Below are positions 3,237-30,008 of a DNA stretch of 39,249 nt, one piece after another; within the stretch, counting starts at the first letter, position 1; each line of letters begins with the position of its first letter. The DNA comes from Candidatus Halobeggiatoa sp. HSG11. GTDB taxonomy: Bacteria; Pseudomonadota; Gammaproteobacteria; Beggiatoales; Beggiatoaceae. The stretch is from positions 1 to 39,249 of the forward strand of contig JAUCGL010000028.1 in NCBI GenBank assembly GCA_030378105.1, given 5' to 3'. The translations under genes were made by a program, and so were the position numbers. The notes under the pieces were generated by a model, which saw only the letters and a list, made by a program, of their open reading frames with translations, had not been told where the DNA came from and made no database searches.

Positions 3237-4019
3237 TTATTTTTTGATAATCATTGCATAAGCTGAATGGTTATGAATAGATTCAAAATTTTCTGACTCC
3301 ACCGAATAAGAAGAAACTCGTTTGTCTTTATTAAGTTTTGCAGCAATATCTCGCACTATATCTTCAACAAATTTAGGGTTGTTATAGGCTCGTTCAGTAA
3401 CATGTTTTTCATCTGGTCGTTTTAACAAACCATATAATTCACTAGATGCCTGTTTTTCAGCTAAATCAATAATATCCTCTATCCATAAAAAACCATTAGT
3501 TTCTACCATAATTGTTATATGAGAACGTTGATTATGGGCTCCAAAATCAGAAATTTGTTTAGAACAAGGACATAAGCTGGTAGCTGGAATAATAACTTTC
3601 AAAGTAATAACTGGAACTCCATCAACAAGTTTTCCTATAAATGTTACTTCATAATCAAGCAGACTTTTTACTTCAGAAATCGGAGCTGATTTTCTAATAA
3701 AATAAGTAAAGGTCATTTCTATATGTCCAGACTCTGCTTCTAAACGACCAGTCATTTCAGAAAGCATTTTTTTGAACGATTCAACCGTTATTTCATATTC
3801 ATGTTCATTAAGAATTTCCACAAATCTTGACATGTGAGTGCCTTTAAAATTATGTGGTAAATTCACATACATATTAAAATTAGCAATAGTATGCTGTTCC
3901 CTACCAGAACGGTCTTTAACTCGTACTGGATATTTGATGTCTTTAATCCCAACTTTATCAATAGCAATATTGCGTACGTCAGCACTACCTTGAACATCAG
4001 GCATAACTGTTTCAGTCAT
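3237..4019 (-). CDS. folE2: GTP cyclohydrolase FolE2
   Basis: The 260-residue product matches the FolE2 (COG1469, type IB GTP cyclohydrolase I) family over its full length. It starts [26 protein letters not shown], carries the metal/active-site region [18 protein letters not shown] (about residues 149-167) and ends with the [10 protein letters not shown] block. The family converts GTP to 7,8-dihydroneopterin triphosphate for folate or queuosine synthesis and tolerates low zinc, using other divalent metals. The gene lies 10 bp downstream of dxs on the same strand, so the two are almost certainly co-transcribed. A canonical folE is not in the window. The start is the ATG at 4019, supported by AAGGAA in the spacer. 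Confidence 0.95.
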
Positions 4020-4029
4020 TATAAATTCC

Positions 4030-5904
4030 TTAAGTGTTTTTTAATAGGGATGTTTCCCCTAAATAATTAGTTATGGAAGTTATTATTCCATTAACGTCTA
4101 ATCCGCATTGAGCTAATAATGTTGCAGTATCACCATGGTCAATAAAATTATCTGGTAAACCTAAATTCAATACTTGAGTTGAATTTTTATGAACATGCAA
4201 GCTTTCGTTAATCGCACTACCAGCCCCTCCCATCACAACGTTTTCTTCAATAGTAACCAGTAACTCGTGTTGTTGAGCCATTTGTAAAATCATATCAGTA
4301 TCTAATGGTTTGACAAAACGCATGTTGACAACAGTTGCATTAAGCTGTTTAGCTGCTTCTTTGGCAACGGTTAATAAAGTTCCAAATACTAAAAGAGCTA
4401 TTTTATCACCTTGCGAACATAATTTGGCTTTACCAATCGGTAGAGTAGTTAATTTGGATTCGACTGGTATTCCTATTCCACAACCACGAGGATAACGTAC
4501 TGCACTTGGGCCATCATGTTTAAAACCAGTGGATAACATTTGCCGACATTCATTTTCATCAGCCGGTGTCATAACTAACATATTGGGGACACAACGTAAA
4601 TAAGACAAATCAAAACAACCTGAGTGAGTTGGTCCATCAGCTCCAACTAAACCACCTCGATCAATAGCAAATAATATTGATAAGTTTTGTAATGCAACAT
4701 CATGAATTAATTGGTCATAAGCTCGTTGTAAAAAAGATGAATAAATTGCAACAACTGGTTTTAAACCTTCACATGCAAGTCCGGCTGCCAGAGTAACACT
4801 ATGTTGTTCAGCAATGCCGACATCAATATAACGATCTGGAAATAACTTAGAAAAATCAACAAGGCCAGAACCTTCTCGCATAGCCGGTGTTATCCCAATT
4901 AAATGTTCATCGTCAGTTGCCATGTCACATAACCAATTACTAAAAATTTTAGTATAAGTTGGGGCGACTGTCTTTTTTGCTATCATTTTTCCAGTTTTAG
5001 GATCGAAAGCTGTAACTCCGTGATAAACGCAAGGATTATCTTCCGCACTGGGAAACCCTTTACCTTTTTGAGTAATAATATGTAGAAACTGCGGCCCTTC
5101 TAATGCTCTCATATTTTTCAAAGTTGAAAGCAAAGTTGGTAAATCATGACCATCAATAGGTCCGATATAATTAAATCCCAATTCCTCAAATAAAGTTCCG
5201 GGAGCCATCATACCTTTCATATGTTCTTCGGTACGTTTGGCTAATTCTCGTATAGTTGGCATCCGTTTAAGAATTTGTTTACTACCTTCTCGTACTGAGG
5301 AATAAAATTGACTAGATAAAACTTTAACTAGATAGTTGGATAATCCCCCTACATTGGGAGAGATTGACATATCATTATCGTTTAAAATAACCAATAAATT
5401 AATGTCTTCTATATCACCAGCATGGTTTAATGCTTCAAATGCCATTCCGGCCGTCATAGCACCATCACCTATTATTGCTATAGCTTTTCGTTCTAACTTA
5501 AGTTGTCGATTAGCAATTGCCATCCCTAAAGCAGCACCTATGGAAGTACTTGAATGGCCAACTCCAAAACTATCATAAATACTTTCGCTACGTTTAGGAA
5601 AACCAGAAATCCCACCACTTTGACGTAAATTTGACATTTGGTCACGCCTACCAGTGAGAATTTTGTGTGGATAACTTTGATGCCCAACATCCCAAACTAA
5701 ACGGTCTTCGGGAGTATTGAAAATATAATGAAGAGCTATGGTTAATTCAACTACTCCTAAATTAGACGCAAAATGCCCTCCGGTACGACTTAAAGTTTCT
5801 ACCAAGAATTCACGTAATTCTTCTGCTAACTGTGGTAATTGAGGTTCAGATAAACTGCGTAAGTCATCTGGGGTTTGAATTTGTTCAAGTAAAGGTTGAG
5901 CCAT
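4030..5904 (-). CDS. dxs: 1-deoxy-D-xylulose-5-phosphate synthase
   Basis: The 624-residue protein is a full-length DXS, the thiamine-diphosphate enzyme that condenses pyruvate and glyceraldehyde 3-phosphate in the first step of the MEP isoprenoid route; its product also feeds thiamine and pyridoxal synthesis. Visible motifs: [14 protein letters not shown] near residue 75; the ThDP-binding [18 protein letters not shown] near 145-165 with the downstream [14 protein letters not shown]; and the central [15 protein letters not shown] and [15 protein letters not shown] blocks of the pyrimidine-binding domain. A C-terminal transketolase domain ends the protein. The start at 5904 gives the usual MAQPLLEQI-type N-terminus. 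folE2 follows 10 bp downstream. A thiamine gene (thiD) lies 3.5 kb away but is not in the operon. Confidence 0.96.
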
Positions 5905-18998: not shown

Positions 18999-21209
18999 AT
19001 GAATTTTTTTGATAATTTTAAAGTAGGTACTAAAATTTCTTCTGGTTTTATTATTATATTGATTTTAATGGGAATAATTGGAGGAATGGCTATATTCCAA
19101 TTTTCTCAGATTAAATCCACCGTTACTAATTTAGCCGATAATTTTGCTAAAGATCAGTATTTAGCCGAACAACTGGTTACACAAATTTTGTTAACCCGTT
19201 TTTATGCTAATAAGTATATTCGAGATCATAAAGTTGAAGATTTAGATCGTTTTAATGAAGAATTTGCCAATTTTGAAAAACTGCTGGTTGAAGCTGATAT
19301 TGAAATCACTAAAGGTGAACGAGTCAAAATGCTCGCAGAAATTAAAGCCGGAGTTGAAAAGTATGGTAAAAATTTTAGTCAAGTAACTAAATTTGTAGAT
19401 AAACGCCATGATACATTATCTAAGATACTTGATATTCAAGGGCCATTGGCGGAACAAAAACTAGAGCAATTGCGTGATAGTGCTTTCAAAGCAGATGATG
19501 CCATTGCATCGTTCTATGCGGGTAATGCTCAACGGGCTTTGCTATTGATGCGTTTAGATGCTTTTAAATATCTTGACAAAGGCGATATAAAATGGGTAAA
19601 AAAATTTAATGAACGTTATCAAGAAGCACAATCGGCCTTTAAACAACTTGATAAAGAACTGCAAGACCCAACTCGACAACAATTGGCTGAATCAGCTAAA
19701 GAAATCATTAATAAATATCATCAAGGGTTTATTAGTTTACAAGCTGATTATAAGAAACAAAATCAAATTATTGAGACTCAATTAAATGTTATTGGCCCCC
19801 AAGTACGTAAAACGGCTTCTAAAATGTCAGATAGCGTGACAGTTGATTTTGATGCAACTAATCAAAAAACCCGTACTTTAGTTGATAATACTCGCTGGCA
19901 ACTGTCTATTACTATGTTTGTAGCTATTTTGATAGGCATAATTCTTGGTTGGTTCATAGCACAGAGTATAACTGTTCCATTGGCAACGGTTATTGAGATG
20001 AGTAATAAAATGTCCAATGGTATTATGGCCCAAGATATTCAAAATCTAACCAAAGTAAATAGCATAATTAATCGGCAAGATGAAATCGGTAATATCGGTC
20101 GTGCTTATGACACTTTAGCTGATTATTTTAAAATGATTATTGAAGATATTGTACAAGTTTCACAAAATTTAGCTAATGGAAATCTACAAGCTATGCCGGC
20201 AGATAAATATAAAGGTGATTTTGTAAAAATAAAAGATTCTATGGAAACAGCTTTATTTAGCTTAAGTCTAGTAATTAAAGATATAGTACAAGTATCTCAA
20301 GGACTAGCTGATGGTGATTTGCGTACTACAACTAAAGCCGAATATAAAGGTGATTTTGTACAAATAAAAGATTCTATGGAAATTGCATTATCCAGTTTAA
20401 ATAAAGTAGTTAAAGATACCGTACAAGTTTCGCAAGGACTAGCTGACGGCAATTTGCGTGTTATTCCCAAAGCTGAATATAAAGGCGATTTTATTAAGAT
20501 AAAAAATGCGTTAGAAACAGTTCTTTTAGCTCAGTCGCAAGTTATCGAAGATATAGTACAAGTTTCGCAAGGATTGGCTGATGGTAGCAAAAATGTGGTA
20601 GCAAAAGCTGAGTATCTAGGTGATTTCATGCAAATCAAGACTGCTTTAGAAACTGCGGCAAATAAGTTATCAGAAGCTATGGCTCAAAATACCATTCAAG
20701 ATTGGTTAAAAACTGGTCAAACAGAACTGAGCAAAAAAATAAGTGGAGAGCTGGAAATAATTGACTTAGCTAAGAATATTTGTGATTTTTTAACTACTTA
20801 TTTAGAAGCACAAGTTGGAGCATTTTATATTGTTGAAGAGGAAACTCAAATTAAGCTAATCGCTAGTTATGCCTATGAACAACGTAAAGGTTTACCTAAT
20901 GAATTTCAGCTTGGAGAGGGGTTAGTTGGACAGGCAGTTTTGGAGAAACAGAAAATTTTAGTGACAGATGTACCAGAAAATTACATAAGTATTCAATCTG
21001 GAATTGGTGAAGCTGTTCCCAGAAATATTTTAGTTATGCCATTTATGTATGAAAATAGCGTGAAAGGTGCAATTGAAATTGGCTCTTTCCATGAATTTAC
21101 TTCAACTCAATTGGAGCTATTAGAACAAGTAATGCCTAATATTGGGATAACCATGAATACTGCGGAATCTCGTACTAAGATGCAGGCTTTGTTGCAGAGT
21201 GAAAGTTAA
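18999..21209 (+). CDS. Kinase-less membrane sensor: HBM-like-HAMP-4x HAMP-like repeat-GAF
   Basis: 736 residues. TM1 (14-33) and TM2 (303-323) bracket a ~265-residue all-helical extracytoplasmic domain. Its two-module layout (GPLAEQKLEQLRDSAFKADD near 148-167 and IGPQVRKTASKMSDSV near 265-280) resembles the helical bimodular (HBM) ligand domain of some chemoreceptors. HAMP (about 320-380, with RQDEIGNIGRAY) is followed by four 45-residue HAMP-like repeats (VSQ at 387, 432, 477, 522) and a GAF domain (580-725). The protein ends MQALLQSES, exactly where the hybrid kinases enter their coiled coil. There is no HisKA, MCP signalling hairpin, GGDEF or receiver. The stop is clean, with no kinase-like sequence after it. 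AAGGA lies before the ATG. A partner acting in trans is inferred. Confidence 0.9.
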   Translation: MNFFDNFKVGTKISSGFIIILILMGIIGGMAIFQFSQIKSTVTNLADNFAKDQYLAEQLVTQILLTRFYANKYIRDHKVEDLDRFNEEFANFEKLLVEADIEITKGERVKMLAEIKAGVEKYGKNFSQVTKFVDKRHDTLSKILDIQGPLAEQKLEQLRDSAFKADDAIASFYAGNAQRALLLMRLDAFKYLDKGDIKWVKKFNERYQEAQSAFKQLDKELQDPTRQQLAESAKEIINKYHQGFISLQADYKKQNQIIETQLNVIGPQVRKTASKMSDSVTVDFDATNQKTRTLVDNTRWQLSITMFVAILIGIILGWFIAQSITVPLATVIEMSNKMSNGIMAQDIQNLTKVNSIINRQDEIGNIGRAYDTLADYFKMIIEDIVQVSQNLANGNLQAMPADKYKGDFVKIKDSMETALFSLSLVIKDIVQVSQGLADGDLRTTTKAEYKGDFVQIKDSMEIALSSLNKVVKDTVQVSQGLADGNLRVIPKAEYKGDFIKIKNALETVLLAQSQVIEDIVQVSQGLADGSKNVVAKAEYLGDFMQIKTALETAANKLSEAMAQNTIQDWLKTGQTELSKKISGELEIIDLAKNICDFLTTYLEAQVGAFYIVEEETQIKLIASYAYEQRKGLPNEFQLGEGLVGQAVLEKQKILVTDVPENYISIQSGIGEAVPRNILVMPFMYENSVKGAIEIGSFHEFTSTQLELLEQVMPNIGITMNTAESRTKMQALLQSES
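20142..20678 (+). repeat. Four 45-aa HAMP-like repeats in the HBM-like sensor
   Basis: Period of 135 bp. Units 2-4 keep DNA stretches such as GAATATAAAGGTGATTTTGT almost unchanged, and the whole block matches the corresponding blocks at 22718-23257 and 28935-29474. The high DNA identity makes these blocks likely recombination or gene-conversion tracts. Confidence 0.85.
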
Positions 21210-21508: not shown

Positions 21509-23794
21509 ATGAAATTTTTCAATAATCTTAAAGTTGGTACCAAAATTATTTTTGGTTTTCTCATTATATTAACATTAATGGTTGGTATGGGAACAACATT
21601 ATTATTTAGTTTAGATAATTTAAAAAAGGGATTTGTTTTTTTAGTTGAACATGATCAACCAGTATTATCTAATGCACATGAATTAGCCAAGTTAGTTGTA
21701 GACATGGAAACCGGTGAACGAGGTTTCTTAATTACCGGTAAAGAAGAATTTTTGGAACCATATAACATTGGAATTCAAGCATTTGATTCGCTACTGAAAA
21801 TCGAAAAACAATTAGTTAGCGATAATCCATCTCAAGTTAACATATTGAAAAAAATAGAACAATTACATTATGAATGGATTAAACAAGCTGGTGAACCAGA
21901 AATTGCTAAACGACGTGAAGCCAAAAAAAATACAGTTAGTGCTGAACATTTGCAAGAGATATTAAAAGCTGGTGTTGGTAAAAATATCTTAGATAAATTA
22001 CGTGCTGTATTATCCCAATTAGAAACTAATTTAAGAGCAAAAAATGATTTAGAGAGTGTTATTTTAACCATTAAAATTGCTAAAAATATGGTTGATCAAG
22101 AAACTGGAGAACGGGGTTTTATTATAACCGGTGTAGATAGTTTTTTGGAGCCTTATTATGCTGGTCATAAACAGCTAGAAATTAATCTTGCAGCCTTACA
22201 GTCTCGTTTAACTGTTGCTGATGACTTGAAATTACTTGAACAAGTTAAATCACTTTCTAAACAATGGATAGAACAAGCAGCCAAACCAGAAATTGCTGCC
22301 AGACGTTCAATGAACACTAATTCGGTTACTATGAATGACATAATCAAGATGATTCAAATTGGAACTGGGAAAAAAATTTTGGATGAACTAAGAGTTCAAT
22401 TTAAGTATTTTATTCAAATTGAAAAACAATTAAATATTGAGCGTTCAAGTGTTGCTAAACTTAATGTTAGTTTTGTAAATAATTTAACATTATGGTTGAC
22501 TGTTATAAGTATGATAATTGGTTTATCACTTGCTGTATTTATTTCTCGTAATATAACTGTTCCACTACAAAAATTAACCATTATGACTAACAATATGGCA
22601 ATTGGAAATATACGACAAATAATTAGTTTGCAGAATGAAATAAACGAAATTACTATTCGGAAAGACGAAATGGGAGATATTGGAAATGCTTATAATACTT
22701 TAGCAACTTATTTTAAAGAAATTATTGAGGATATAGTATCGGTATCAGATGGATTAAAAAATGGTGATTTACAAGTTTCACCTAAAACCCAATATAAAGG
22801 AGATTTTGTTAAGATAAAAGATAGCTTAGAAAGTATTTCCTTTAATCTTTTAGCAGTGGTTAAAGATATAGTACAAACTTCTCAAGGATTAGCCGATGGT
22901 AATTTGCGTACTACAACTAAAGCCGAATATAAAGGTGATTTTGTGCAAATAAAAGATTCTATGGAAACCGCATTATTTAGTTTAAATAAAATGGTTAAGG
23001 ATACTGTGCAGGTTTCTCAAGGATTGGCTGATGGCAATTTGCGTATCACCCCCAAAGCCAAATATAAAGGCGATTTTGTTAATATAAAAAATGCGTTAGA
23101 GACTGCTTTGTTAGCTCAATCGCAGGTTATTGAAGATATAGTGCAAGTTTCGCAAGGATTGGCTGATGGTAGCAAAAATGTGGTGGCAAAAGCTGATTAT
23201 CAAGGTGATTTTATTCAAATTAAAACCGCTTTAGAAGCTGCGGCAAATAAGTTATCAGAATCTATGGCTAAAAATACCATTCAAGATTGGTTAAAAACTG
23301 GCCAAACAGAACTGAGCAAAAAAATAAGTGGAGAGCTAGAAATAATTGATTTAGCTAAGAATATTTGTGATTTTTTAACTACTTATTTAGAAGCACAAGT
23401 TGGAGCATTTTATATTGTTGAAGAGGAAACTCGAATTAAGCTAATCGCTAGTTATGCTTATAATCAACGCAAAGGTTTACCTAATGAATTTCAGCTTGGA
23501 GAAGGTTTAGTTGGACAAGCAGTTTTAGAGAAGCAGAAAATTTTGGTGACAGATGTACCAGAGGATTATATCAGTATTCAATCTGGAATTGGTGAAGCTG
23601 TACCTAAAAATATTTTAGTTATGCCATTTATGTATGAAAACAGTGTGAAAGGTGCGATTGAAATTGGTTCTTTCCATGAATTTACTTCAACTCAATTAGA
23701 ATTGTTGGAACAAGTGATGCCTAATATTGGAATTACTATGAATACTGCGGAATCCCGTACTAAGATGCAGGCTTTGTTGCAGAGTGAGAATTAA
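21509..23794 (+). CDS. Kinase-less membrane sensor: CHASE3-CHASE3-HAMP-4x HAMP-like repeat-GAF
   Basis: 761 residues. TM1 (about 14-34) and TM2 (326-346) bracket two successive CHASE3-type domains. Each carries the family signature METGERGFLITG / QETGERGFIITG (residues 66-77 and 197-208) followed by FLEPY and, about 50 residues on, a QWIEQAAKPEIAARR-like helix, so the sensor arose by internal duplication. HAMP (346-405, RKDEMGDIGNAY), four 45-residue repeats (VS or TS at 412, 457, 502, 547) and GAF (605-750) follow. It ends MQALLQSEN, the same end point as its two paralogues, with no output domain. The leader before the ATG (TTTTAATTAAGGAATACCAG) is shared with the HBM-like sensor, so coding and regulatory DNA were duplicated together. 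CHASE3 ligands are unknown. Confidence 0.9.
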   Translation: MKFFNNLKVGTKIIFGFLIILTLMVGMGTTLLFSLDNLKKGFVFLVEHDQPVLSNAHELAKLVVDMETGERGFLITGKEEFLEPYNIGIQAFDSLLKIEKQLVSDNPSQVNILKKIEQLHYEWIKQAGEPEIAKRREAKKNTVSAEHLQEILKAGVGKNILDKLRAVLSQLETNLRAKNDLESVILTIKIAKNMVDQETGERGFIITGVDSFLEPYYAGHKQLEINLAALQSRLTVADDLKLLEQVKSLSKQWIEQAAKPEIAARRSMNTNSVTMNDIIKMIQIGTGKKILDELRVQFKYFIQIEKQLNIERSSVAKLNVSFVNNLTLWLTVISMIIGLSLAVFISRNITVPLQKLTIMTNNMAIGNIRQIISLQNEINEITIRKDEMGDIGNAYNTLATYFKEIIEDIVSVSDGLKNGDLQVSPKTQYKGDFVKIKDSLESISFNLLAVVKDIVQTSQGLADGNLRTTTKAEYKGDFVQIKDSMETALFSLNKMVKDTVQVSQGLADGNLRITPKAKYKGDFVNIKNALETALLAQSQVIEDIVQVSQGLADGSKNVVAKADYQGDFIQIKTALEAAANKLSESMAKNTIQDWLKTGQTELSKKISGELEIIDLAKNICDFLTTYLEAQVGAFYIVEEETRIKLIASYAYNQRKGLPNEFQLGEGLVGQAVLEKQKILVTDVPEDYISIQSGIGEAVPKNILVMPFMYENSVKGAIEIGSFHEFTSTQLELLEQVMPNIGITMNTAESRTKMQALLQSEN
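22718..23257 (+). repeat. Four 45-aa HAMP-like repeats in the CHASE3 sensor
   Basis: 135-bp period. Unit 1 is the most diverged (SVSDGLKNGDLQVSPKTQYK); units 2-4 closely match the same-numbered units in the other two sensors. The correspondence is by position in the array, so the arrays were copied as blocks rather than expanded separately. Confidence 0.85.
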
Positions 23795-23995: not shown

Positions 23996-26900
23996 ATGCA
24001 AAACATAACTCCTAAACATAAAATAATTAAGAAGTATTATCAAGATTTAAAGTCTTTTGAACGAATTAATCAGTTACAAGAAGATACGGTTAAACAGGCG
24101 TTTCAGCATGTATTGGAATTTTATGCGGGGCAACGTAATTGGACTTTGATTCAAGAGCAAACTATATCATCTATTCGGTTGGATGGAACTGTGTTTGATG
24201 ATTCTAAGATTCCAAGGGGTTATTGGGAGGCGAAACGTGATTCTGTTGATTTGTCGCCAGCGATTCAGGAGAAATTATATGATAAGGGTTATCCAAAAGA
24301 TAATATTATTTTTCAAAAGCCAAGCCATGCTATTTTAATTCAAAATGGTGAGGAGGTTTTGGATGTTTCTTTGGATCAGCCGGAAAGTTTGATTGCGGTG
24401 GTTGAGAAGTTTTTTGATTATAGAACGCCGGAAAATGAGAGGTGGGATAAAGCGGCGGATGAGTTTAAGGATGTTGTACCTTTGTTGGGGGAGAAGTTAT
24501 TAAAAATAATAAGGACGGCATTGATTAAAGATAAGCCGTTTAAGAAAGCTTTTGATAGTTTTGCTAATCAGTGTCGGCAGTCTATTAATCCTGATTTGGC
24601 TGATGCTGCTATTGAAGAGATGTTGATTCAGCATTTGTTGACGGAGCGGATTTTTAGGAAGTTGTTTGATCATCCTGATTTTGCTAAGAGGAATATCATT
24701 GCTAGGGAAATTGAGAATGTTATTGAGAAGTTGACGGCTAAGTCTTTTAATCGTGATGCTTTTTTTGAGGATTTGCAGTATTTTTATCAGGCTTTGGAGT
24801 CGGTGGCGGCGACTATTCGGGATTATAGTTATAAGCAGCATTTTTTGAATACGATTTATGAGCGGTTTTTTCAGGGTTTTTCGGTTAAGGTGGCTGATAC
24901 TCATGGGATTGTTTATACTCCGCAGCCAATTGTTGATTTTATGGTGAGGTCGGTTGAGGAGATTTTGCAGAAGGAGTTTGGGAAGTCGTTGGTTGATAGG
25001 AATGTGCATGTTCTTGATCCGTTTGTGGGGACGGGTAATTTTATTACTAGGATTATTCGGGAGTTGGCAAATGGTAAGAAGATGGATTTGAATCGTAAGT
25101 ATAAGAAGGAGTTGCATTGTAATGAGATTATGTTGTTGCCGTATTATTTGGCTTGTATGAATATTGAGCATCAGTATATGGATTCTATGGGTAGGTATGA
25201 GCCGTTTAATGGGATTTGTTTGGCGGATACTTTTAAATTGGCTGATGAGCAGCAGGCGGATTTGTTTGCGAAGGAGAATACTGAGCGGATTAAGAAGCAG
25301 AAAGCAACTGATTTTTATGTGATTATTGGGAATCCACCGTATAATGCTTGGCAGGCTAATGAGAATGATAATAATAAGAATCAGACTTATAACACTGTTG
25401 GTGATTGGGTGAAAGATACCTATGCTAAAGATTCCAAAGCTACATTGAAAAATTCCTTGTCAGACCCGTATGTTAAGGCTATTAAATGGGCTTCCAATCG
25501 TATTAAAAATGAAGGGATTGTTGCGTTTGTTAGTAATAATGGTTTTTTGGATAACATAGCTTTTGATGGAATGCGAAAACATTTGGAACAGGATTTTACT
25601 AAGATTTATATTTTGGATTTAGGTGGTAATATTAGAAAGAGTCATGGTAAAACCTCTAATGTCTTTGATATTAAAGTCGGAGTTAGTATTAATTTATTTG
25701 TAAAGAATGATTCAGTTAAAAAAGGTATTTATTATGCAAAAATAGACGATTCTTTGAGCAAAGAAGAGAAATTATCTAGTTTAGAAAATCCTGTTGATTG
25801 GCAACAAATTATTCCTAATGATAAATATACTTGGCTAACTGAAGGTTTGCATTCAGAATTTGATGATTTTATTCCTTTGGGAACTAAAGAGGCTAAGAAG
25901 CAAAAAGGTATTACCGAAGATGTTATTTTTAAAATTTATAGTAATGGAGTAAAAACTAATCGTGATGTTTGGGCTTATAATTTTAACCAACAAATGCTTG
26001 AGCAAAATATGCAAAATATGATTGCATTTTATAATCAACAAGTTGAACAATGGTTAAATAAATCTGATGACAAATTAAGTATTGATAATTTTGTTGTGTA
26101 TAATGATAAACAAATTAAATGGAGTGGTGATTTAAAAATACATCTAAAAGCTGGTAGACTTGCTAAATTTTCTAACGACAAAATAAGAATATCTCTTTAT
26201 CGGCCTTTTACTCATTCATATCTATTTTTTAACAGAACTATGAATAATAGAGTTTATGTATTTCCCTCAATATTCCCAACTCCAGAAACAGAATTGGAAA
26301 ATAAGGTTATTTGTGTTACTGGAAATGGTTCGGAAAAACCTTTTACTCCTTTTATTTCAAATATAATTGTTGATTTAAATATGATAAGTCCGGGAGCTGG
26401 TGGAACTCAATGCTTCCCCTTCTATACCTACAACGAAGACGGCAGCAATCGCACCGAAAACATAACCGACTGGGCATTGAACCACTGGCAACAACACTAC
26501 CAAGATAAAAAAATCACCAAATGGGACATATTTCACTTTGTTTACGGTCTACTCCACCAACCCCAATACCGGGAAAAATACTCCCAAAACCTCAAAAGAG
26601 AACTACCACGCCTCCCAATGACCGACAACTTCTGGCAATACTCCAAAGCCGGAAAACAACTAGCAGACCTACATTTAAACTACGAAACAGTTGAACCATA
26701 CGAACTAGAGCTTATAGAAAATCCCAAACATCCATTTAGCCTTGACGTTGAAAAGATGCGACTCTCCAAAGACAAAACCGAGATAATCTACAACAAATTC
26801 CTAACCATCAAAGGCATCCCTGCACAAGCCCATGAATACAAACTCGGCAACCGCTCCGCCCTACAATGGATCGTTGACCAATACCGAATAAAAACCGACA

Positions 26901-27037
26901 AAAGAAGCGGCATCATAAACAATCCCAACCGCAAAGATGATGAAAATTATATACTGGATTTAATTGGGAAAATTGTTACGGTTAGTTTGGAAACGGTAGA
27001 AATTGTGGAAGGATTAAAAAACAGCAATATTTCGTAA
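23996..27037 (+). CDS. Single-polypeptide restriction-modification enzyme (Type ISP/IIG-like, nuclease-methylase-specificity)
   Basis: 1013 residues. The N-terminal domain has a PD-(D/E)XK-like site: an acidic stretch at 63-69 and GYWEAKRD (E78, K80). A helical linker leads to an adenine-N6 methyltransferase with motif I VLDPFVGTGNF (about 339-349), the upstream YTPQPIVDFMVRSV element (307-320) and motif IV IIGNPPYNAW (443-452). The C-terminal third carries the Type ISP C-terminal/target-recognition region (GGTQCFPFYTY, FHFVYGLLHQPQYREKY). No helicase motifs are seen, so it is unlike the longer LlaGI-type ISP enzymes and closer to Type IIG. It would methylate and cut the same target. It is a stand-alone gene beside REP elements and a RAYT. 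Its base composition changes sharply three times (see findings). Confidence 0.85.
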   Translation: MQNITPKHKIIKKYYQDLKSFERINQLQEDTVKQAFQHVLEFYAGQRNWTLIQEQTISSIRLDGTVFDDSKIPRGYWEAKRDSVDLSPAIQEKLYDKGYPKDNIIFQKPSHAILIQNGEEVLDVSLDQPESLIAVVEKFFDYRTPENERWDKAADEFKDVVPLLGEKLLKIIRTALIKDKPFKKAFDSFANQCRQSINPDLADAAIEEMLIQHLLTERIFRKLFDHPDFAKRNIIAREIENVIEKLTAKSFNRDAFFEDLQYFYQALESVAATIRDYSYKQHFLNTIYERFFQGFSVKVADTHGIVYTPQPIVDFMVRSVEEILQKEFGKSLVDRNVHVLDPFVGTGNFITRIIRELANGKKMDLNRKYKKELHCNEIMLLPYYLACMNIEHQYMDSMGRYEPFNGICLADTFKLADEQQADLFAKENTERIKKQKATDFYVIIGNPPYNAWQANENDNNKNQTYNTVGDWVKDTYAKDSKATLKNSLSDPYVKAIKWASNRIKNEGIVAFVSNNGFLDNIAFDGMRKHLEQDFTKIYILDLGGNIRKSHGKTSNVFDIKVGVSINLFVKNDSVKKGIYYAKIDDSLSKEEKLSSLENPVDWQQIIPNDKYTWLTEGLHSEFDDFIPLGTKEAKKQKGITEDVIFKIYSNGVKTNRDVWAYNFNQQMLEQNMQNMIAFYNQQVEQWLNKSDDKLSIDNFVVYNDKQIKWSGDLKIHLKAGRLAKFSNDKIRISLYRPFTHSYLFFNRTMNNRVYVFPSIFPTPETELENKVICVTGNGSEKPFTPFISNIIVDLNMISPGAGGTQCFPFYTYNEDGSNRTENITDWALNHWQQHYQDKKITKWDIFHFVYGLLHQPQYREKYSQNLKRELPRLPMTDNFWQYSKAGKQLADLHLNYETVEPYELELIENPKHPFSLDVEKMRLSKDKTEIIYNKFLTIKGIPAQAHEYKLGNRSALQWIVDQYRIKTDKRSGIINNPNRKDDENYILDLIGKIVTVSLETVEIVEGLKNSNIS

Positions 27038-27055: not shown

Positions 27056-27206
27056 CGTAGGGTGGATAGGAGCGAAGCGTAAATCCACCAAAACCCAAAA
27101 ACCAACCAAAGCCCAAAAACCACATTTAAACCAACAATATCACCTGATAATAATGAGCTTTTGCGATGTTGTGGTGGATTTCCGCTTCGCTTCTATCCAC
27201 CCTACG
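27056..27206. repeat. Left REP pair (BIME-like) of the RAYT locus
   Basis: CGTAGGGTGGATAGGAGCGA then AGCGTAAATCCACC at the left is inverted as GGTGGATTTCCGCTTCGCTT then CTATCCACCCTACG at the right, with a ~70-base C/A-rich spacer. The same unit, including the spacer, is repeated downstream of the RAYT gene at 27757-27904. It begins 19 bases after the R-M stop codon and could serve as its terminator. Confidence 0.85.
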
Positions 27207-27262
27207 GTTTTTACCACGTTTTTTATAATTTTTATAGTTTTATGCCTTTTTGGAGGAGAAAA

Positions 27263-27733: not shown

Positions 27734-27756
27734 AAATTCATAAAAAATATAAACCT

Positions 27757-27960
27757 GTAGGGTGGATAGGAGCGAAGCGTAAATCCACCAAAACCCAAAA
27801 ACCAACCAAACCCAAAACCATATTTAAACCAACAATATCGCCTGATAATAATGAACTTTTGCGATGTTGTGGTGGATTTCCGCTTTGCTTCTATCCACCC
27901 TACGGTTCTTACTTTTGCGATGTTGTGGTGGATTTCCGCTTCGCTTCTATCCACCCTACG
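27757..27960. repeat. Right REP pair of the RAYT locus plus an extra arm
   Basis: The unit at 27757-27904 is a near-identical copy of the left REP pair, followed by a third right-hand arm (about 27911-27960, CTTTTGCGATGTTGTGGTGG then ATTTCCGCTTCGC). The extra arm shows that single arms, with ~20 bases of the inner spacer, can be duplicated in tandem. Confidence 0.85.
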
Positions 27961-27975
27961 AATAACTTAAAATAC

Positions 27976-28109: not shown

Positions 28110-30008
28110 ATGAACAATAAATTCGTCACATACGTCATTCTAACTATAAGTTTGTTTATAGGCTATTTCCTATTAAGAGATGTTGCTTGGCAAGGTACAA
28201 AGCAATTACACACATTAATGGAAGTTATTGCTTCTTTATTAGCTTTGTTAATTGGGATAATGGCTTTATTACAATACTATAGTAAAAAAAATATCACTTT
28301 TTTATTCATTGGAACTGGTTTTTTAGGAACCAGTTGTTTAGATATCTACCATACAGTAGTCACTTCAACATTTTTTGACTTATATTTTCCTTCCCCACCT
28401 CCTTCATTAATTCCTTGGAGTTGGTTAGCATCACGGATGTTTTTAGCATTTTCACTGTGGTTAAGCTGGATAGTTTGGAATAGAGAACAAAAACTCGGTA
28501 AAAGCCAAGTTACCAATGAGTCTATTGTTTATAGCATTGCCATATTATTAACAATTGGCTGTTTTATCTTCTTTGCTTTTGTACCTTTGCCCAGAGCTTA
28601 TTATCCAGAATTATTTTTTCATCGTCCAGAAGAATTCATACCAGCAATATTTTTCTTATTAGCTTTAATTGGTTACCTAAAAAAAGGACATTGGCAAACT
28701 AACATTTTTGAGCATTGGTTAGTTTTATCATTGATAGTTAATTTTATGGGGCAAGTTATGTTTATGTCTTTTTCTGGCCACCTGTTTGATAATATGTTTG
28801 ACAGTGCTCATTTATTAAAAAAAGTTAGCTATATCTGTGTGTTAATTGGTTTATTATGTAATATTTATATTATGTATAAAAACTCTGAAAAATATACCAA
28901 ACAACTATCTGAAAATAATGAAGATTTACAAATTATGATTAAAGATATTGTTAAGATTTCACAAGGTATAGCTGATGGTAATTTACAAACCACTCCAAAG
29001 GCTGAATACAAAGGTGATTTTGTACAAATAAAAGCTTCTTTGGAATCGGCTTTACTAAGTCTTAATTCAGTTGTTAAGGATATAGTGCAAGTTTCTCAAG
29101 GATTAGCCGATGGTAATTTGCGTATTACAACTAAAGCCGAATATAAAGGTGATTTTGTGCAAATAAAAGATTCTATGGAAATCGCATTATCTAGTTTAAA
29201 TAAAGTAGTTAAAGATACTGTTCAAGTGTCTCAAGGACTAGCTGATGGTAATTTGCGTGTCATCCCCAAAGCTGAATATAAAGGTGATTTTGTTAAGATA
29301 AAAAATGCGTTAGAAACCACTTTATTAGCTCAGTCACAAGTTATTGAGGATATAGTACAAGTTTCGCAAGGATTGGCTAATGGCAGCAAAAATGTAGTAG
29401 CAAAAGCTGATTATCAAGGTGACTTCATTCAAATTAAAACCGCTTTAGAAGCTGCGGCAAATAAATTATCCGAAGCTATGGCTCAAAATACCATTCAAAA
29501 TTGGTTGAAAACTGGTCAAACAGAACTGAGCAAAAAGATAAGTGGAGAGCTGGAAATAATTGACTTAGCTAAGAATATTTGTGATTTTTTAACCACTTAC
29601 TTAGAAGCACAGGTTGGAGCGTTTTATATTGTAGAAGAGGAAACTAGAATTAAGCTAATTGCTAGTTATGCTTATAGCCAACGGAAAGGTTTACCTAATG
29701 AATTTCAGCTTGGTGAAGGTTTAGTTGGACAGGCAATTTTAGAGAAACAAAAAATCTTAGTGACAGATGTACCAGAAAATTATATAAGCATCCACTCTGG
29801 AATTGGTGAAGCTGTACCTAAAAATATTTTAGTTATGCCATTTATGTATGAAAATAGCGTGAAAGGTGCGATTGAAATTGGTTCTTTCCATGAATTTACT
29901 GAAACTCAGTTGGAACTATTAGAACAAGTGATGCCTAATATTGGAATAACCATGAACACTGCGGAATCTCGTACTAAGATGCAAGCTTTGTTACAGAGTA
30001 AAAATTAA
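28110..30008 (+). CDS. Kinase-less membrane sensor: MASE3-4x HAMP-like repeat-GAF
   Basis: 632 residues. About seven membrane helices in residues 8-255 form a MASE3 domain: HTLMEVIASLLALLIGIMAL (34-53), FIGTGFLGTSCLDIYHTVVTS (66-86) and PWSWLASRMFLAFSLW (102-117) are its signatures. A short helix leads, without a standard HAMP, into four 45-residue HAMP-like repeats (VSQ- or ISQ-type cores at 283, 328, 373, 418) and a GAF domain (475-620). It ends MQALLQSKN at the same position as the two other kinase-less sensors. MASE3 is usually linked to histidine kinases or cyclic-di-GMP enzymes; none is attached here. The C-terminal ~350 codons are nearly identical in DNA to those at 18999 and 21509. 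The start is the ATG at 28110; no strong ribosome site is seen. Confidence 0.9.
   Translation: MNNKFVTYVILTISLFIGYFLLRDVAWQGTKQLHTLMEVIASLLALLIGIMALLQYYSKKNITFLFIGTGFLGTSCLDIYHTVVTSTFFDLYFPSPPPSLIPWSWLASRMFLAFSLWLSWIVWNREQKLGKSQVTNESIVYSIAILLTIGCFIFFAFVPLPRAYYPELFFHRPEEFIPAIFFLLALIGYLKKGHWQTNIFEHWLVLSLIVNFMGQVMFMSFSGHLFDNMFDSAHLLKKVSYICVLIGLLCNIYIMYKNSEKYTKQLSENNEDLQIMIKDIVKISQGIADGNLQTTPKAEYKGDFVQIKASLESALLSLNSVVKDIVQVSQGLADGNLRITTKAEYKGDFVQIKDSMEIALSSLNKVVKDTVQVSQGLADGNLRVIPKAEYKGDFVKIKNALETTLLAQSQVIEDIVQVSQGLANGSKNVVAKADYQGDFIQIKTALEAAANKLSEAMAQNTIQNWLKTGQTELSKKISGELEIIDLAKNICDFLTTYLEAQVGAFYIVEEETRIKLIASYAYSQRKGLPNEFQLGEGLVGQAILEKQKILVTDVPENYISIHSGIGEAVPKNILVMPFMYENSVKGAIEIGSFHEFTETQLELLEQVMPNIGITMNTAESRTKMQALLQSKN
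28935..29474 (+). repeat. Four 45-aa HAMP-like repeats in the MASE3 sensor
   Basis: 135-bp period. Unit 1 (KISQGIADGNLQTTPKAEYK) differs most from its paralogues. Units 2-4 match the HBM-like sensor more closely than the CHASE3 sensor at several residues (MEIALSSLNKVVKD, GNLRVIPKAEY). Confidence 0.85.

Follow-up and report, generated by a model that had tools for sequence, protein, structure and literature searches.

In the Type I and Type IIG systems of Helicobacter pylori, target-recognition domains move from copy to copy through recombination in conserved flanks (DOMO; Furuta et al. 2011, PMC3077401), and the abstract of that work makes no mention of a compositional scar. Defence genes with a variable recognition domain between conserved flanks are also described as segmentally variable genes (Zheng et al. 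2004, PMC387263); that account, in the part drawn on here, concerns protein variability and does not mention base skew. At human meiotic double-strand breaks, the bases of the forward strand that mutate are A and C to one side of the break but T and G to the other, in asymmetric flanks of about 2 kb, while the central 100 bp on each side are symmetric (Hinch et al. 2023, PMC7615360). In mouse cells, in a single-strand annealing system, the processing of the break decides which base of a heteroduplex is kept, with no intrinsic base preference found in the part of the study used here (Pokusaeva et al. 2022, PMC9001825).

The loci described below resemble the DOMO genes in their conserved flanks and moving recognition domains, and the human breaks in their geometry of complementary flanks around an unskewed centre. 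The human signal, however, is a eukaryotic mutation rate collected over thousands of hotspots, whereas here a near-saturated composition, best fitted by transitions only, is seen at individual bacterial loci. A GT-rich 3'-ended strand beside the recombination point is likewise a property of GT-rich islands and RecA-preferred pairing sequences (Kim et al. 2013, PMC3763553). The titles of two papers cited there (Biaudet 1998; Colbert 1998) ascribe the E. coli islands to codon usage; here, unlike in those islands, codon usage reverses its sign inside one gene and by position.

The window gene, its product and its base skew

The window is the whole 39,249-nucleotide stretch of DNA that was analysed, from the genome of a giant sulfur bacterium. 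A gene on its forward strand (23996..27037) codes for a protein of 1013 aa with a nuclease-like N-terminal part, an ISP coupler, an N6-adenine methylase and a Type_ISP_C specificity domain. The Pfam matches were PF22240 (66.9 bits), PF02384 (47.5), PF07669 and PF18135 (347.9), and PADLOC labelled the protein REase_MTase_IIG. By similarity, the product is predicted to be a restriction-modification enzyme in a single chain, with PDB 7lo5 as a close match and the Type ISP enzymes as relatives. Residues 5-1022 of 7lo5 align with residues 10-1005 of the window enzyme (E 3.1e-200), and 7lo5 and 7lvv, which we take to be the Type IIG/IIL enzyme DrdV, have the same coupler, methylase and specificity domain. 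These parts are also found in the Type ISP enzymes LlaGI and LlaBIII (5ffj, 4xqk), whose alignment, however, begins only at residue 158 of the window enzyme. As in Type ISP enzymes, coupler, methylase and Type_ISP_C domain lie in one chain; as in the 7lo5-like Type IIG enzymes, a chain of about 1000 aa combines a predicted nuclease with methylase and specificity parts. Pfam detected no helicase family in the window enzyme, whereas the single chain of Type ISP enzymes includes a superfamily 2 helicase-like ATPase (PMC4666363).

The N-terminal part is a candidate nuclease by its similarity to 7lo5, with which it has RGYWE.K in common. Within this match GYWEAK (codons 75-80, 24218..24235, forward strand) contains candidate nuclease residues, presumably a motif of the PD-(D/E)XK nuclease kind. 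The methylase motif NPPY, read from the sequence, occupies codons 446-449 (25331..25342, forward strand).

We computed third-position composition in 240-base windows along the gene and set the borders of the skewed arms by a 50-codon threshold scan; open reading frames (ORFs) throughout are mechanical calls, not annotated genes. In the left flank, the K arm (24299..25435, forward strand), nearly all third positions of the coding strand are G or T (in windows within 24536-25405: A.01-.05, C.00-.01, G.36-.50, T.46-.59). The centre with the specificity (target-recognition) region (25436..26371, forward strand) is unskewed (A.25-.36, C.03-.07, G.07-.15, T.49-.56 over 25526-26395), and the other ORFs of the window have values near A.37, C.08, G.13 and T.42. 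In the right flank, the M arm (26372..26977, forward strand), third positions are mostly C or A (A.36-.42, C.35-.46, G.06-.09, T.07-.15 over 26426-26935).

The third-position G+T share peaks at 1.00 and falls to.12 within one gene, compared to a mean of.564 over 1,390,780 sampled bases. In a 799-kb subset that itself takes in several skewed genes, the highest 1% of 60-codon windows exceeded.88 and the lowest 1% fell below.25. The adjoining ORFs, 21509-23794 and 28110-30008, stay within.38-.66. The first-pass annotation had described a skew in three segments of one frame; the skew is real and stronger than described, and the borders given there are close to those of the threshold scan, the left one after NPPY and the right one at GGTQCFPFY.

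A Y1 transposase gene (IS200-like, RAYT-like; PF01797; 27263..27733, forward strand) adjoins the right flank. Its third positions shift from G/T-rich (.78) to C/A-rich (.28) in 40-codon windows, which is an association only.

Copies of the gene and exchange of the centre

Segments of the gene had different best relatives among the homologues compared. The flanks are closest to L009/L039, with identity of.80 over residues 101-460 and.78 over 793-994; in the centre (461-792) the identity to the same proteins is only.54. The best relative of the centre is L041 (.77), whose contig lacks the left flank. No single homologue was best at equal identity throughout, the outcome that the first-pass annotation had named as refuting its reading. 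We conclude from these comparisons that the specificity centre of the window gene has been exchanged.

Six further full-length copies in this genome (C275, C118, C62, C125, C326 and C77), at 31-63% protein identity, have the same skew profile. Where copies are near-identical, most of their differences fall in the centre. For example, C118 and C125 have a DNA identity of 93-100% over codons 1-600 in 40-codon windows (except 79% at 401-440) and of 95-100% over codons 841-1000, while their protein identity over 681-800 is 25-43%. Similarly, the flanks of the Eco57I-type genes L076a, L076b and L191 are mostly 88-99% identical, and their centres (601-900) 14-43% identical in protein. Both groups therefore display the hallmark of domain movement, near-identical flanks around a divergent recognition domain; C326 and C77 are a less clean case, as the first 280 codons diverge too. 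Flank identity tracked the bias in only three of five copy pairs. An intein or intron in the centre was rejected: the centres of relatives are instead split by small toxin-antitoxin-like genes, which are absent from the window gene.

The first-pass annotation had suggested that segments were exchanged between enzymes of different ancestry and that the skew marks this ancestry. Exchange is borne out for the unskewed specificity centre; a foreign origin of the skewed segments, on the other hand, is not supported, as the skew sits in conserved flanks common to the six other full-length copies.

Geometry and substitution type across loci

At many, though not all, Type I and Eco57I-type loci the specificity region has a G/T-rich left side and a C/A-rich right side, and the arms fade over about 2 kb and cross gene borders. 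Across 1.39 Mb, opposite domains within 3 kb of each other had the K-left/M-right order 22 times and the reverse order once (p=5.7e-6). Ten of the 22 pairs consisted of domains in different ORFs; pairs span different genes, some of them differing in direction. Complementary signs on the two sides of the centre, regardless of gene direction, were seen both in this count and in a mean profile of 12 loci, which ran from +.27 at the left edge through.02 at the centre to -.22 at the right edge. Bins of this profile contain 5 to 12 loci. Centre edges came from paralogue alignments (six loci), from the hsdS gene (four; L172 was entered as 3530-4726, its ORF being 3495-4688) or by analogy (the window and C62); in the last two the edges nearly coincide with the skew borders, so these two loci are not independent. 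At hand-labelled non-restriction loci the K-M order was found 10 times versus one; these loci enter the comparison by this order, while exchange of the centre was observed at restriction loci. One skewed gene was seen to have an FGE-sulfatase domain.

Position relative to hsdS sets the sign of the skew in neighbouring genes. An hsdM upstream of hsdS is G/T-rich (C143, C25, C105). In C127, where the order is reversed, hsdM downstream of hsdS is C/A-rich and the end of hsdR upstream of hsdS is G/T-rich. A skew that follows position in hsdM and hsdR, and that crosses gene borders, does not support the ancestry reading: it is a signature in the DNA tied to position and does not label ancestry.

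The strength of the pattern varied. Of 11 methylase genes, all in + orientation within their locus, eight reached a G+T share of.85, the others having.70 (L116),.73 (L121) and.82 (L124). Right arms of Type I loci were weak, with a right-flank share of.40-.57 in six of seven measured hsdS genes, a count that leaves out L194, L195, L209, L210, L217 and L230 (a neighbouring ORF was taken as core) and L193 (no core). For 43 of the 86 skewed domains no second copy turned up within the sampled part of the genome (27%); in this comparison all control pieces were 400 bases long and skewed domains 200 to about 1600. Among the loci measured, the strong pattern was limited to the genus and some relatives. 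Even in the same genus, hsdS L227 of G004 had a left share of only.43, and a 400-kb sample of a relative, G032, showed no K-M order (2 vs 3). A copy in Nostoc has a C/A-rich right arm (.18); wider occurrence by way of this copy was rejected, as 200 kb of the Nostoc plasmid were without paired order.

At four-fold sites, transitions only (A to G and C to T on one strand) described the arms better than an equal keto or amino preference, with log-likelihood gains of 563 in K and 299 in M arms, and the equal preference was rejected. The G share among G+T was.29-.63, compared to.09-.28 predicted by equal G/T preference. Six of the eight residues had G shares close to those expected from transitions alone; deviations were seen for Arg and Leu in K arms. 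A context-specific deaminase was rejected as well, since no motif stands out and the shifts are similar over neighbouring bases, the C-to-T shift being larger ahead of G and smaller ahead of C. Spontaneous deamination alone would be expected to yield far more C to T than A to G, but the log-odds shift, worked out by hand, was at least as large for A to G as for C to T.

In near-identical copies, silent transitions in the arms, polarised by majority rule, numbered 34 with the bias and 60 against it (20/38 in the IIG K arm, 11/14 in the ISP K arm, 3/8 in the ISP M arm), where a purely mutational bias at equilibrium should give similar counts in both directions. We base no conclusion on this tilt because the less skewed stretch between the arms (codons 481-640) gave 5 with and 8 against, and because saturation and mis-polarisation can produce such a tilt.

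Origin and meaning of the skewed flanks

The flanks bear an opposite, transition-type, strand-asymmetric bias, which sets in at either edge of the centre and weakens over about 2 kb. We consider it probable that this bias results from repeated homologous exchange of the centre combined with a strand-biased transition process on the 3'-ended flank strands. The central specificity segment of the defence methylase would be replaced repeatedly by homologous recombination through the conserved flanks. Exchange would begin at breaks or gaps in the centre, 5' ends would be cut back, and 3'-ended single strands (the upper on the left, the lower on the right) would invade another copy. On the 3'-ended strand A would tend to become G, and C to become T, either by single-strand damage or by biased resolution of G.T and A.C mismatches in heteroduplex. 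Many such events could saturate silent sites with G/T of the upper strand left of the centre and, on the right, with G/T of the lower strand, that is C/A of the upper. Amino-acid exchanges, given as keto-ward over amino-ward ratios, were.91 in residues 1-200, 1.16 in the K arm,.99 in the centre and.69 in the M arm; they lean the same way as the silent bias, which we count in favour of this explanation. We found neither a breaking enzyme nor a fixed break site. Against this explanation we also count the uneven strength of the pattern among restriction genes and relatives, the skewed domains that had no second copy, the large A-to-G shift, and the flank identity that followed the bias in only three of five copy pairs.

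Conversely, the bias could be the cause of exchange and not its scar, if GT-rich 3'-ended strands were selected for stabilising RecA filaments and so gave more swaps. RecA filaments are most stable on TGG- and TG-rich single strands (PMC3763553), on either side of the centre the strand rich in G and T is the presumed 3'-ended one, and the excess of silent transitions against the bias is as expected under selection or drive, weakly so given the similar ratio between the arms. Equal G/T preference mispredicts the G shares, however, though an unequal one could still fit, and the RecA preference is general, yet the strong pattern is confined as described. We regard such selection as unlikely; damage or biased mismatch repair fits better. 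Another strand process at the DNA level is quite improbable in our estimate: local converging synthesis, a single-stranded mobile intermediate or a reverse-transcription-based diversifier. Converging replication would also yield the K-left/M-right order, but we know of no 3-kb replication terminus. Retroelement mutagenesis changes adenines to any base, unlike the transitions of both kinds on one strand seen here. On the other side, the Y1 transposase gene that adjoins the window gene has a K-to-M profile, and the FGE-sulfatase domain of one skewed gene is of a type varied by retroelements (PMC7159879).

Selection on codon use or at the mRNA level in these genes in particular, or mutation coupled to their transcription, would agree with a signal measured at silent sites of coding sequence. 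We consider it very unlikely, as the sign flips inside one gene; gene-specific codon use was rejected by the reversed sign of hsdM downstream of hsdS, at one locus (C127), and domain pairs that span genes of different direction also argue against it. A mosaic of segments from differently composed ancestors could account for a centre whose best relative is unlike that of the flanks. As a source of the skew it was rejected and has hardly any probability left, for the copies, and unrelated enzyme families too, have skewed flanks whose sign follows from where they lie with respect to the specificity gene, and the skew fades across gene borders.

Under the exchange-with-transitions explanation, the opposite, near-saturated flank biases, arranged as around a repaired break, look like a lasting footprint of repeated domain swapping. 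More tentatively, diversifying defence loci may be under a recombination-hotspot regime, in which centre-initiated, strand-biased gene conversion would have pushed almost all silent sites of flanks 1-2 kb long towards the favoured base. This regime would be a bacterial counterpart of meiotic hotspots, legible from a single genome sequence, and would act on restriction specificity domains and, by annotation, on repeat regions of STAND, WD40, TPR-CHAT and similar proteins. If the exchange-with-transitions explanation is right, base composition alone would mark repeatedly swapped protein modules and the side on which each strand was single, and would offer a cheap finder for diversifying immune loci in unculturable bacteria. 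It would also be a natural record of the effect of recombination on base composition, with which one could probe whether frequent exchange follows from GT-rich strands or produces them.

Composition and exchange in the window gene

The ORF at 23996-27037 (+) encodes a 1013-residue restriction-modification enzyme in which Pfam detected a coupler, an N6-adenine methylase and a Type_ISP_C specificity domain. The solved enzyme 7lo5 matched it over nearly the full length in the alignment; the Type ISP enzymes LlaGI and LlaBIII align with it from its residue 158 on, and it lacks the helicase-like part that they carry as Type ISP enzymes. Based on the 7lo5 alignment and the absence of the helicase-like part, we filed it as a putative member of the single-chain Type IIG enzymes related to Type ISP. 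Its named relatives (six loci) come from Thioploca, Parabeggiatoa and another Thiotrichaceae genome.

Around the gene lie three similarly built sensor proteins that carry HAMP_2 and, at the C-terminus, a GAF domain (18999-21209, 21509-23794 and 28110-30008). Downstream, a Y1 transposase gene is bracketed by repeats of GTAGGGTGGATAGGAGCGAAGCGTAAATCCACC and of the inverse of this motif (27056-27220 and 27755-27970), which we take to resemble the REP elements of a RAYT.

The three-part change of composition described in the first-pass annotation was confirmed. Third positions are ordinary at first, almost only G or T at 24299-25435, ordinary again, and mostly C or A at 26372-26977. With A folded into G and C into T, the baseline predicts G and T at about.50 each; the six strongest G/T windows had G of.41-.50 and T of.46-.57. 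If instead T is folded into C and G into A, C and A are predicted at.50 each, and the C/A windows had C of.35-.46 and A of.36-.42. Baseline composition after such folding thus accounts for the numbers in the skewed windows. Antisense to the methylase runs an open frame of 223 codons (24500-25171, -), probably a mere by-product of the G/T-only third positions.

The same annotation read the skewed segments as exchanged between enzymes of different ancestry. Both flanks of the gene have their best relative in L009/L039 (.80 and.78), while the centre is closest to L041 (.77) and reaches only.54 with L009; therefore, exchange was correctly proposed, but for the wrong piece: it is the centre, which carries no skew, that was exchanged. 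Flanks were likewise near-identical and centres divergent between the copies C118 and C125 of the same genome, and also among three copies of Eco57I type, a head-to-head pair in C15 and a single one in C324. The C326/C77 pair fits less cleanly, since the N-terminal parts diverge as well.

The head-to-head Eco57I-type pair (L076 2-2920, + and 3436-6438, -) has near-identical flanks and different recognition regions; this arrangement could allow specificity switching by inversion. In L058 (3842-5705), extra partial 3' fragments of an ISP-like gene (C125 codons 949-1029 and 1002-1028) lie beside a larger piece and may represent silent cassettes or copies in decay. In relatives, small genes interrupt the ISP-like gene near residue 575, separating its methylase part from its specificity part: VapB and PIN in L042 (5001-8741; same as L020), PIN in L247, L249 and L252, UPF0175 and a gene without match in L250, RhuM/Fic in L248, and DUF2971 in L251. 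Different modules, often toxin-antitoxin-like, recur at the same spot in the exchange centre.

Distribution and geometry of the skew

Six further full-length copies in the genome, with 31-63% protein identity, show the same profile in the same places. We compared the left-minus-right difference in G+T share among ISP-like homologues, in most cases with a single locus from each genome. It was.53-.79 in the seven loci of this genome,.69-.76 in the same-genus L020, L024 and L042 (L020 and L042 being identical in sequence), and.35-.62 in L009/L039, L010, L011, L012, L035 and L038. The remaining family loci for which both sides were measured, 15 in number, had -.01 to.34. The one relative from outside the family had -.06; five of six plasmid controls ranged from -.18 to.09, and the sixth (Nostoc) had.37. 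This cyanobacterial gene (L241, Nostoc sp. MS1 plasmid) has a C/A-rich right arm (G+T share.18) without a left arm.

Type I loci are the sharpest test of position-dependent skew. Upstream of hsdS in C143, C25 and C105, hsdM is G/T-rich; in C127, the one locus with the order hsdR-hsdS-hsdM, the hsdR end is G/T-rich and hsdM is C/A-rich. For the seven measurable of nine own hsdS genes, the G+T share was.63-.98 in the left 900 bases and.26-.57 on the right. In relatives, the left flank reached at least.65 in 4 of 18 measured family loci (G002.83, G014.79, G032.75, G028.65) and in none of seven loci outside the family; in the same-genus G004 it was.43. The hsdM of G019 reaches.97. A G+T share of at least.85 in some 60-codon window was found in 8 of the 11 methylase genes examined and was not reached in L116 (.70), L121 (.73) and L124 (.82).

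A threshold scan of 1.39 Mb in 84 pieces of the genome gave 150 skewed domains, the upper strand being G/T-rich in 77 and C/A-rich in 73. Neighbouring opposite domains at most 3 kb apart were ordered G/T then C/A in 22 pairs, compared to 1 in reverse (p 5.7e-6), and 10 of the 22 pairs had their domains in different ORFs. Other thresholds gave 40 vs 10, 15 vs 0 and 14 vs 0; outside hand-labelled restriction ORFs the counts were 10 vs 1 (main threshold) and 24 vs 7 (lowest). The same scan did not show this order in 400 kb of the relative G032 (2 vs 3) or in 200 kb of the Nostoc plasmid (0 vs 1). Since reverse complementation leaves the pattern unchanged, it is independent of gene direction. Across 12 own loci, the mean G+T excess on the left was.27 at the edge,.15 at 1.2-1.5 kb and.08 at 2.1-2.4 kb, and the centre had.02. 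On the right it stayed at -.22 through 900 bases and was close to zero farther out than 2 kb.

Of 30 hand-picked skewed ORFs outside the main family (27 of them among 64 listed skewed ORFs, the others adjacent or similar to these), 28 matched some Pfam family. Besides MmeI-type and Type I restriction genes, these ORFs included nSTAND-WD40, TIR-WD40, WD40-caspase, TPR-CHAT, DUF4062-TPR, nSTAND-HEAT, Roc-COR, NACHT, CHAT, FGE-sulfatase, AAA-type and patatin proteins. Ordinary genes (RelA/SpoT, molybdopterin oxidoreductases, a NosZ-like protein) were also skewed, towards one end. According to Kaur et al. (PMC7159879), multicellular prokaryotes including Beggiatoa carry hypervariable conflict systems. 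A copy elsewhere in the sample was found for 43 of 86 skewed domains compared to 38 of 300 control pieces. The evidence for centre exchange comes from restriction loci, the skewed non-restriction loci being candidates. In one FGE-sulfatase protein (L171 8328-11153, -), an arm that is G/T-rich on the coding strand lies upstream of and extends into the FGE-sulfatase domain, which retroelements diversify in other systems.

Base changes and possible origin

At four-fold sites of strong G/T arms, the G share among G+T was near what transitions alone would give in six of the eight residue classes (observed/predicted: Thr.34/.30, Val.45/.41, Ser.41/.43, Ala.37/.35, Pro.60/.62, Gly.41/.36). The misfits were Arg (.63/.38) and Leu (.29/.45); the latter may reflect first-position C-to-T changes, which would turn leucine codons of the form CTN into TTR. 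In C/A arms, A as a fraction of A+C was likewise near the transitions-only prediction (Thr.29/.30, Val.45/.41, Ser.44/.43, Ala.37/.35, Gly.34/.36, Arg.34/.38, Leu.52/.45, Pro.69/.62). Amino-acid exchanges relative to less biased homologues, counted over sequence pairs that are not independent, lean the same way as the silent sites (N-terminal part.91, G/T arm 1.16, centre.99, C/A arm.69). Recent silent transitions between near-identical copies ran 60 against the bias and 34 with it in the arms; the stretch between the arms gave 8 to 5, so these counts do not separate drive from mutation bias.

In the proposed scheme, the centre would suffer a break or gap, the 5' ends would be cut back and the 3'-ended strands would invade, leaving the upper strand single-stranded on the left and the lower strand on the right. 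A study on human meiotic hotspots (PMC7615360) draws the same strand scheme, with mutational asymmetry on either side but none in the middle. The 3' strands might become G/T-rich through single-strand damage or through biased resolution of G.T vs A.C mismatches. The log-odds shift of A to G, worked by hand, is at least as large as that of C to T, and plain cytosine deamination is therefore disfavoured. Selection for RecA-favoured strands (PMC3763553) is a less likely third route; the transitions-only fit speaks against a form of it with equal selection for G and T. Biased conversion, judged from sequence, would fit both the A-to-G shift and the transitions-only pattern.

Among the titles and abstract openings listed in full-text searches, a scope that leaves subscription papers and preprints outside, there was no report of such composition scars in bacteria. 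Recognition-domain exchange is already known, as is strand-asymmetric mutation at breaks in humans; what we consider new is that the two combine, in a bacterial genome, into a saturated signature seen locus by locus.
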